Source: Armatimonadota bacterium
GTDB lineage: Bacteria; Armatimonadota; DTGP01; JAKQQT01
Direction: 5' to 3'
Length of the DNA: 64,000 bases
Assembly: GCA_036504095.1 (NCBI GenBank)
Contig: DASXVS010000024.1
Coordinates: 62,001 to 126,000, forward strand
Positions within the stretch are counted from its first letter, which is position 1; every line of letters begins with the position of its first letter. The notes under the pieces are model-generated. The model ran no database searches. It had not been told where the DNA came from and worked only from the letters and a program-made list of their open reading frames with translations. The translations under genes and the position numbers were made by a program. Shown piece after piece: positions 22,615-25,689 of the stretch.

Positions 22615-22641
22615 ACAATGATGGTAGCAACAGCCTGAGTG

Positions 22642-22694
22642 GAACGGGCGTCCCGCCCGTTTTCGATGCAATGCAACGGGCGGGACGCCCGTTC
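22642..22694. repeat. Perfect 20-bp inverted repeat (REP-like)
   Basis: Arms 22642-22661 and 22675-22694 are perfectly complementary (GAACGGGCGTCCCGCCCGTT and its complement) with a 13-bp loop. It lies between the divergent mutY and kinase genes. A hairpin here would be in both 5' leaders. Its composition resembles the REP-like palindromes near the transposase at 23741. Confidence 0.85.
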
Positions 22695-22702
22695 TACTGG
22701 AA

Positions 22703-23638
22703 ATGGACAACTCAATCCTCACACGCTTGATCCAGCCGGCTTTTCCGGGCGGAACAGTGATCTCTTCCGCACCGCTGGACGGGATGGCGAACAGCAGTTA
22801 CCGGGTCAGCCTGGATGGCCGCGAGGCGCCGATCACCGTTCGGGTCTACACGCGGGCGCCGGAGTCGGCGGCGCGCGAGTGGGAGATCATGGCCCATGTT
22901 GCCCGCCGAGTGCCGGTCCCTCACGTCCTCTGGCACGGCAGAAACCCGGAACTGATCGACAACCCGTACGCTATCCTGCGCTGGGTGGATGGCGTTCCCC
23001 TCGACCAGGTGATCGCGGAAGGCGGATCGGACGCGCATCAGGCCGCCTACGCCGCCGGAGAGGTGCTGGGCCGCATCGGCTCCTTCACGTTCCCGAAGGC
23101 CGGCTTCCTCGGACCCGACCTGACGGTCACGGATCCGTGGGAGAGCTTCGCGCAGGGCATCCGCGACTGCGTGAAGGACTGTGCGTTCAAGGGCATTGCG
23201 GCGGACCGGATGGGCAGGGACCTCGCCGCGCGTATGTGGACGTTTGCGATGCAGCACGTCGGCAGCCTGAACCGGGTCCGCGACAGCAAGTGCTTGGTCC
23301 ACGCGGATTTTCACGGTCGCCATCTGATCATGCGACGCGCCCGCGATGAATGGGCCGTTGCCGGAGTGCTCGACTGGGAGTTCGCGTTCTCGGGGCCGCA
23401 GTTGTTCGATCTGGGGCAGATGATCCGGTATAAGGGCCTGCCGCCCGAATATCACGACGATTTTGCGCGCGGATTCGCCGACCATGGCGGCGAACTGCCC
23501 GACGATTGGCGGACGCTGGGACGAACCTGCGACCTGGTGAACCTCCTGCAGTTCCTCAGCCGTCCCGAGCTCACACCCGAACAGGAAGGCCACTGGCTGA
23601 ACGCGCTGCGATACGCGCTGGATGAGGAGGGAGTATGA
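22703..23638 (+). CDS. Aminoglycoside phosphotransferase (APH)-fold kinase
   Basis: 311 residues of the APH/choline kinase superfamily; phosphorylates a small molecule, identity unknown. The N-lobe has SSYRVSLDG and ITVRVYTRAP. The catalytic loop reads LVHADFHGRHLIM: the His and Asp of the HxDxxxxN Brenner motif are kept but the metal-binding Asn is replaced by His. The metal-binding DWE (VLDWEFAFSGPQLFDLGQMI) is present. Its last 27 bp form one copy of the direct repeat that brackets the RAYT cassette; the second copy contains the mnmE start. Before that insertion its TGA would have overlapped the mnmE ATG. Confidence 0.8.
   Translation: MDNSILTRLIQPAFPGGTVISSAPLDGMANSSYRVSLDGREAPITVRVYTRAPESAAREWEIMAHVARRVPVPHVLWHGRNPELIDNPYAILRWVDGVPLDQVIAEGGSDAHQAAYAAGEVLGRIGSFTFPKAGFLGPDLTVTDPWESFAQGIRDCVKDCAFKGIAADRMGRDLAARMWTFAMQHVGSLNRVRDSKCLVHADFHGRHLIMRRARDEWAVAGVLDWEFAFSGPQLFDLGQMIRYKGLPPEYHDDFARGFADHGGELPDDWRTLGRTCDLVNLLQFLSRPELTPEQEGHWLNALRYALDEEGV
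23612..23638 (+). repeat. Left 27-bp direct repeat of the RAYT cassette
   Basis: Identical to 24296-24322. It begins TACGCGCTGGATGAGG and ends GAGTATGA. It contains the last eight codons of the kinase gene and its TGA; the ATG embedded in GTATGA is the position where the mnmE start stood before the insertion. Confidence 0.95.
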
Positions 23639-23740
23639 GCATGGGCGACAACAAAGTCCAGCAGCCGGGCTCCGAGGCATAAATGCCCCGGCAAAGGGCC
23701 TACGGCCGCAAAGGCCATGAATGGCCTGACGGAGGGAAGG

Positions 23741-24175
23741 ATGCCACAGAGTCTCGTAGAAATCTATGTTCACCTTGTGTGGACAACCCACAATCGGGAA
23801 CCATTGCTGATTAGTGATACAGAACGATCGGTCTACCGCGTATTGGCCTCAGAAGCAGCGAAGATGAACTGCCGCATCCTGGCGCTGGGAGGCGTTGCGG
23901 ACCATGTCCATGTCTTGGTTTCTCTGCCTGCCCAGTACGGTATTCCTCGTCTCCTCAACCAAATGAAGGGTGCTTCTTCACATCTCATCCGAGCCACGCC
24001 TTCCGGCGAGGGGTTTGGCTGGCAGGGTGGCTATGCCGCCTTGAGCGTCAGCCCCAATCATGTCCCACGGGTACAGGCCTATGTTCAACGCCAGAAAGCA
24101 CACCATGCGGAATGCTCCACGTTTCCTGCATGGGAACCGTCCCTCGAACAAAACGCACCGAGTAAAGCGGAATGA
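23741..24175 (+). CDS. REP-associated tyrosine transposase (RAYT, IS200/IS605 TnpA-like)
   Basis: About 144 residues from [10 protein letters not shown], preceded by GGAGGGAAGG as ribosome binding site. Y1 transposase with the HUH motif in [12 protein letters not shown], the N-terminal [12 protein letters not shown] typical of the family, and the C-terminal helix carrying the single catalytic Tyr ([10 protein letters not shown]). Such enzymes cut and join single-stranded DNA at palindromic ends. It has no TnpB partner, and it lies within REP-like palindromes, so it is classed as RAYT. The frame is intact. Confidence 0.9.
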
Positions 24176-24295
24176 GACACGCACTGACGCCGGGCTCCAC
24201 TAGTCCCTCACTGAACGGCTGAGTGAAAACCGGCAGCCCATTCATGGGCTTCGTGGCCGAAGGCCAGCAGCAGTGGCATTCATGCCACGGGATGC

Positions 24296-24322
24296 TACGC
24301 GCTGGATGAGGAGGGAGTATGA
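24296..24322 (+). repeat. Right 27-bp direct repeat of the RAYT cassette
   Basis: Identical to 23612-23638. Here the ATG at 24319 is the mnmE start, and GAGGAGGGAGT upstream is its ribosome binding site, so the duplication rebuilt a full translation start for mnmE. Confidence 0.95.
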
Positions 24323-25689
24323 CAACCGACACCATCGCCGCCATATCCACGCCGATCGGGGAGGGCGGAATCGGCATCGTCCGCGTAAGCGGGCCGGACG
24401 CCTTCGCTGTCGCAGCGCGCGTGTTCCGGGCGAAAAGCGGCAGACCGATATCCGGGCAGCGGAGCCACACGGTGCGCTTCGGCACGATTGCCGACGAGGG
24501 CGAAGAGGTCGACCAGGCCCTGGCGACCGTCTTTCGGGGCCCGAATTCCTACACCGGAGAGGACACCGTGGAGCTGTCCACGCACGGAGGCCCGGTTCCG
24601 CTGCGGCGCACGCTGGACCTGTTGTTGAGGGCCGGGGCGAGGCTGGCCGGTCCCGGCGAGTTCACGCAACGCGCCTTCATGAACGGGAAGCTTGACCTGG
24701 CGCAGGCGGAAGCCGTGATCGACAGCATCCGCGCGAAATCCGACGCCGGACTGAAGGTCGCGATCCGCCAGTTGGAGGGCGTGCTCAGCCGTCGCGTGAC
24801 CGCCGCCAGGGACTCGCTGCTCTCTGTCTGCGCCGCTGTCGAGGCGAGCACGGATTTCCCGGACGAGGTGCCCGAACCGGACAGGCCGCAGCTCATCCTC
24901 CAGACCGGCCACGTCCTGGACGAGGTGAACCGTCTCCTCGCGACGGCGGACAGCGGCCGGGTGTATCGCGAGGGCGTGTCGTGCGCCATCGTCGGACGGC
25001 CCAACGTGGGCAAATCTTCCCTGCTGAACGCCCTCCTTCGCGATGCCCGGGCGATCGTCACCGAGGTGCCGGGCACGACGCGTGACGTCATAGAGGAAAG
25101 CGTGACGCTGGGCGGGGTGGCGATCCGCCTCCTGGACACGGCGGGCCTCCGGGATTCCGAGGATACTGTGGAGCGCATCGGCGTCGAGCGCACGCACGCC
25201 GCGATGGCCGACGCCGACGTGTTGATGGTGGTTCTGGACGCCTCCACTCCACTCACCCGCGAGGACGAGCAGGCGCTGGACGAGGCGCGCGGCCGCCCGG
25301 CGGTCGTCGTGCTGAACAAGAGCGATCTCCGGCAGTTCCTGGTCGGCGCCGATGTCACGGTCCGCCTGCCGCACGCAGAGGTGGTCTCCGCTTCCATGGC
25401 CACGGGCGCCGGTCTCCCGGAGGTTGAAATGGCGCTGGCGAAGGTCGTTCTGGACGGCAAGATGGCGCCGCAGGACGTCACCGTTAGCCGTGCGCGGCAC
25501 GTAGCCAGCCTGTCAGGGGCGCGCAATGCCCTGGAGGCCGTGCTCGCCACGCTGAGAGGTGACTGGCCGCTCGACCTCGTCGCCCAGGACCTCCAGATCG
25601 CCGCGCGCCACCTTGGCGAGATCGGCGGTCAAACGGCAAGCGAGCGGATCATACAGGAGATATTCGCCCGATTCTGCGTGGGAAAATGA
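24319..25689 (+). CDS. mnmE: tRNA modification GTPase MnmE
   Basis: With MnmG it adds the aminomethyl group at U34 of certain tRNAs. 456 residues. N-terminal folate-binding domain ([22 protein letters not shown]), helical domain, and an inserted G domain: G1 GRPNVGKSS (about 225-233), G3 [11 protein letters not shown]4 NKSD. The C-terminus ends FCVGK, keeping the catalytic Cys of the FC(I/V)GK signature. Start ATG 24319 lies in the right direct repeat of the RAYT insertion. No mnmG adjoins it in this window. Confidence 0.97.

Follow-up and report, generated by a model that had tools for sequence, protein, structure and literature searches.

How did two perfect copies of one 27-bp sequence come to stand on either side of a transposase cassette, at the very junction between two intact genes? 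According to the prevailing view, REP-associated Y1 transposases are domesticated and immobile, and their IS200/IS605 relatives insert without target duplication. The window, a stretch of 64,000 nucleotides, belongs to a metagenome assembly (MAG) of an Armatimonadota bacterium (genome G000; 4.68 Mb, 80 contigs, 98.6% complete). The probable answer, to which we assign a rough probability of 0.6, is a lineage-specific insertion of the cassette into a tight kinase-mnmE junction, with duplication of 27 bp of the target.

Direct repeats at the kinase-mnmE junction

The repeat TACGCGCTGGATGAGGAGGGAGTATGA is present in two copies without mismatch, located at positions 23612-23638 and 24296-24322 with a spacing of 684 bp. 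The initial annotation had described this pair as bracketing the transposase gene and its palindromes, and its coordinates were confirmed. The left copy forms the last nine codons, including the stop TGA (23636-23638), of an APH-family kinase gene from the list of open reading frames (22703-23638; Pfam APH, E=1.5e-27). The right copy includes the Shine-Dalgarno sequence GGAGG and, at 24319, the start codon ATG of mnmE (tRNA modification GTPase; 24319-25689; TIGR00450, 358.6 bits against a cut-off of 252.6), the N-terminus of MnmE being in agreement with that of the sister genus. Both flanking genes are intact around the cassette. From the orphaned mnmE-type start in the left copy, a mini-ORF of 15 codons (MSMGDNKVQQPGSEA, followed by a stop) can be read at 23635-23682. 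Both repeat copies and all these frames are given on the plus strand. Between mutY and the kinase gene, at 22638-22698, there is also a near-perfect 24-nt inverted repeat of the AACGGGCGTCCCGCCCGTT type, which belongs to a different palindrome family.

For two flanks of 450 bp, the computed number of 27-bp matches expected by chance is about 9e-11 to 1e-10, and a chance origin of the repeat pair is excluded. The genome is a metagenome assembly in 80 contigs, but artefact or chance is scarcely credible as an explanation: a match of 27 bp is far beyond chance, both genes are intact, and a like anatomy was found in two other independent genomes.

Anatomy of the cassette

The 657 bp between the repeat copies (23639-24295) consist of filler DNA, a left palindrome, the transposase gene, a right palindrome and the sequence GATGC. 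The filler (23639-23666, plus strand), located between the left repeat and the left palindrome, is unique; the genome search detected no further copy of it with three or fewer mismatches. The left palindrome, a double hairpin (REP/TIR) identified by repeat and family search, is located at 23672-23732 on the plus strand, and the right palindrome, likewise a double hairpin but in inverse orientation, at 24230-24290 on the minus strand. The two arms are 61 nt each and 77% complementary. GATGC (24291-24295, plus strand) spaces the right palindrome from the right repeat copy. The repeats abut the palindromes asymmetrically, because the left gap is about 28-33 nt of unique DNA and the right gap is GATGC. 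In DNA folding against shuffled sequences, the right palindrome gave z of about -3.1, and the result for the left one was less clear (z of -0.95 to -1.6). A 10-bp direct repeat, GCCGGGCTCC, was also observed at 23664-23673, where the left palindrome has its outer foot, and at 24189-24198, inside the cassette before the right palindrome.

The palindrome family is dispersed, with about 20 matches in the window genome. The cassette is single-copy there, and therefore no donor copy is left in the genome. The same genome carries seven Y1_Tnp genes, six of them outside the window (L015 and L017-L021); repeat finding detected palindromic inverted repeats around each of these six, in differing families. 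Around REP singlets of the window genome, no surrounding repeat longer than 13 nt was found.

Class of the transposase

The transposase gene (23741-24175, plus strand, with 23741 as the best start) encodes a Y1/HUH enzyme of 144 aa (Pfam Y1_Tnp, E=5e-23). Alignment gave the motifs DHVH, WQ and YVQRQKAHH, the active-site motifs being intact. With 69.3 bits the protein passes the NCBIfam IS200 equivalog model (cut-off 55), but with 27.2 bits it falls short of REP_Tyr_transpos (cut-off 80); its relatives in the PDB include ISHp608 TnpA. The TnpA-Y1 subclass 1.2 is characterized by the signature DH[IV]H, WQ and Y---Q--HH, a length of about 148 aa and a low copy number (Quentin et al. 2018, PMC6006769). 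The enzyme shares these motifs, with similar length and low copy number. As judged from its sequence, it is of the subclass 1.2 type and not a canonical RAYT, and the RAYT assignment of the initial annotation fails on both the motifs and the REP_Tyr_transpos score.

Subclass 1.2 was reported without REPs or typical terminal structures and without IS properties, mainly from Cyanobacteria and Bacteroidetes (PMC6006769), the lack of terminal secondary structures and REPs being, according to the authors, a general but not strict feature (PMC6006769). In contrast, the window cassette and 85% of the Armatimonadota loci with this signature have flanking inverted palindromes or repeats. When an inverted repeat was scored as present above the 99% level of mismatched pairs, it was detected for 100/118 (85%) Armatimonadota genes with the subclass-1.2 signature and for only 6/25 classical subclass-1.1-like genes. 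Three Armatimonadota loci of this type also carry long direct repeats, unlike the published subclass.

The canonical RAYT (TnpA-REP, REPtron) has a Y..NP motif and GT(A/G)G-headed REPs, and it showed none of the usual signs of mobility (Nunvar et al. 2010, PMC2817692). The window cassette shares with this group a single-copy HUH-Y1 gene between inverted REPs and the dispersal of cognate REPs, but its enzyme has YVQRQ in place of Y..NP, and its palindromes lack the GT(A/G)G head, the sequences 5' of the two being ..GGGCTC and ..GCATCC. In TIRtrons (TIRYTs), inverted repeats that contain self-complementary tracts flank a tyrosine transposase gene, and some of these repeats are dispersed (Di Nocera et al. 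2013, PMC3733652); the motif GGGGWSAS occurs in some TIRs only and is not universal in the class (PMC3733652). The cassette agrees with them in its tyrosine transposase gene, self-complementary inverted repeats and dispersed relatives of these repeats, and differs in the direct repeats, as no target duplication is reported in PMC3733652. With IS200/IS605, which are without larger target duplication or terminal inverted repeats (PMC2817692), it shares the Y1_Tnp domain, the score above the IS200 cut-off and the PDB relatives. IS200/IS605 elements are typically multi-copy, whereas the cassette is single-copy and has inverted palindromes and a 27-bp direct repeat, if this is a target duplication. 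The most fitting description of the element is that of a REPtron/TIRtron-like cassette whose enzyme belongs to subclass 1.2.

Survey of direct repeats at Y1 loci

A total of 236 Y1 loci (104 + 60 from Armatimonadota, 72 from other phyla) were scanned for direct repeats on either side of the gene that were unique and non-palindromic; the counts include only loci whose flanks were long enough under the thresholds of the scan concerned. The same anatomy was detected at 3/164 Armatimonadota loci (the window locus, L077 and L115), and no clean case was found among the 72 loci of other phyla.

At L077, in genome G208 of another family, the repeat is a perfect 41 bp. The left copy ends at the TGA of a 248-aa upstream ORF, with the right copy beyond the right palindrome at a distance of 11 nt. 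Among 11 orthologues of this ORF from the same family, the conserved C-terminus (NRVPxPW) is present once each and a second copy is absent, so that the coding copy should be the original; the downstream synteny of the orthologues differs. At L115 (genome G008), the repeat is 41/43 bp, with two mismatches over 43 bp. Its left copy spans the final codons of the upstream frame with their stop, and 6 nt more, this frame being only a fragment because the contig starts there; the right copy is located 6 nt outside the right palindrome. The transposase frame of this locus (L115:346-984) lacks a stop codon of its own upstream of the right palindrome and continues across both this palindrome and the right-hand repeat copy, giving 212 aa. 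In all three cases the transposase is co-directional with the upstream gene. The distance between right copy and right palindrome is 5 nt in the window, against the 11 and 6 nt above, while the distance on the left varies from 8 to 40 nt. No microhomology was detected at any of the six joints, and no cut motif is common to the ends of the three cassettes.

As controls, 582 intervals away from Y1 genes, mostly coding DNA, were scanned and none carried such a repeat, the sole match listed being the window element itself, seen in L092. Comparison of the three clean cases, out of 126-164 loci, with 0/582 gave a Fisher p of 0.006-0.010. The enrichment at Y1 loci, based on three cases, looks real. 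The classical multi-copy IS200 in G019 showed no unique repeat. A plasmid search returned mostly classical IS200, and viral contigs scanned with three transposases gave one partial match of 43 residues only.

These three loci also bear on the idea that a 27-bp tandem duplication arose first and that the cassette landed between its copies later. Small tandem duplications occur in bacteria, and this order of events is compatible with an enzyme that makes no duplication by itself, but it requires landing exactly at the copy border in three unrelated genomes, and we regard it as highly improbable.

Several candidates were not retained. Repeats in L054, L061, L068, L072, L076, L124, L132, L137, L142, L154 and others proved to be the REPs themselves, and L199, L203, L205, L244 and L257 were dropped, as they contain large duplicated REP blocks and no unique repeats. 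L121 (G002:C35) was set apart as ambiguous on account of a paralogue duplication, its cassette having a gene start on one side and, on the other, a second ORF whose beginning repeats this region (a 161-bp stretch of high identity). L227, L240 and L258 were also set apart as ambiguous, involving the ends of hsdS (type I restriction specificity subunit). In these, subclass-1.2 transposase genes are located directly 3' of hsdS ends, the palindrome is translated as the HsdS C-terminal tail (..SANGAPPSQPGATPQ..), and another, diverged hsdS 3' end is located to the right; in L227 a second transposase frame starts after it.

The presumed ancestral junction

If the cassette were removed, the outer flanks at both the window locus and L077 would read as one plausible continuous junction. 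For the window locus, the initial annotation had proposed an original 4-bp overlap of the kinase and mnmE genes. In the sister genus (G001), the gene upstream of mnmE overlaps it by ATGA at the stop/start, but that gene encodes a GNAT protein, and kinase-mnmE adjacency was found nowhere else. Among kinase homologues in nine other genomes of the phylum, none adjoins mnmE within the 1.5 kb examined; this is only a weak refutation of the ancestral overlap, because these relatives are distant. No empty kinase-mnmE site and no congener of the window genome were found in the genome collections, and a kinase scan of the 85k-species collection yielded no relative. An ancestral 4-bp overlap at mnmE is plausible from the sister-genus junction, though with another upstream gene there. 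That the kinase and mnmE themselves originally overlapped, with a single copy of the repeat, is the most economical reading but is not demonstrated. The ATGA overlap in the sister genus, together with the two further independent cassettes, supports the earlier proposal of a local duplication on both sides of the cassette with neither gene disrupted.

In relatives of G008, the gene preceding dapB differs. Ancestral adjacency is unproven at all three clean sites, because the neighbour gene pairs are not conserved in relatives. This lack of conservation would suit capture of a gene end by recombination, in which the cassette would mark the place of a rearrangement and the right copy would have remained from the end of an older gene. 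The hsdS loci described above seem to be such cases, and L121 lies between copies of the first part of a gene. The repeats of the window and L077 are, however, perfect and short, and their joined outer flanks make a single junction, so that for the clean sites this explanation is improbable.

Probable insertion with local target duplication

The best reading of the perfect repeat, the anatomy of L077 and L115, the clean controls, the joints without microhomology and the repeat-free IS200 of G019 is an insertion with target duplication. The REPtron/TIRtron-like block 23639-24295 would have entered the very tight kinase-mnmE junction in one event, and the 27-bp duplication would have let the kinase keep its end and mnmE its ribosome binding site and start. 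We infer that the insertion event itself gave rise to the duplication and, more weakly and as a proposal of our own, that it was made by displacement synthesis. HUH cleavage leaves a 3'-OH that is able to prime synthesis or to attack a phosphotyrosine (PMC8266576). The enzyme might nick one strand of the target; the free 3'-OH would then be extended by tens of bases with strand displacement and joined to the cassette, and the displaced strand, which ends in the phosphotyrosine, would become linked to the opposite end of the cassette. Such limited displacement synthesis before strand transfer would produce a long, variable and blunt-jointed duplication; the three observed are 27, 41 and 43 bp and blunt at both edges. 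This route is undescribed for any Y1 enzyme in the cited literature, and a transposition route new to RAYTs, as raised by the initial annotation, is possible.

Several points count against insertion with duplication. It is rare (3/164 Armatimonadota loci), and if the target were always duplicated on insertion, most traces must have decayed. The variable distances between repeat and palindrome and the missing shared cut motif are unlike the precise end cleavage by TnpA. There is also no empty site in a close relative, and the gene pairs are unconserved.

Some of these points would fit a duplication made by host repair, in which a broken fork or double-strand break captured the cassette by template switching or end joining and long overhangs were filled. 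The filler DNA at the left joint, the varying repeat length and palindrome distance, and a rarity that suits an accidental event agree with it. Under host repair the repeat would be retained because, without a duplicated junction, one of the genes would be broken, and selection would favour such junctions among packed genes; selection would act under either mechanism, since in overlapping or packed genes only a junction-duplicating insertion keeps both whole. The joints are, however, without microhomology, and template switching copies, whereas no donor copy is present in the genome. Ku-dependent joining is judged unlikely because one Pfam search found no Ku gene in the window genome, G008 or G208. 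These absences speak against the commonest forms of host repair, as does, against host repair in general, the occurrence of three independent cases in one small gene family and none in controls. We consider it less likely, though it is the main competitor, and either the transposase or host repair may have made the duplication.

Possible mobility of the cassettes

As a generalization from insertion with target duplication, subclass-1.2 Y1 cassettes might move as whole palindrome-transposase-palindrome units, with an HUH pathway of limited displacement synthesis duplicating 27-43 bp of the target; we put this forward tentatively, and think it rather doubtful. The arrangement at these loci suggests that a gene type thought to be immobile may jump and copy its landing site. 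If true, cassette mobility would be directly attested by recent insertions that carry long duplications of variable length, the duplications would provide a footprint for dating and finding cassette insertions, and the mechanism by which the cassettes disseminate would become testable.
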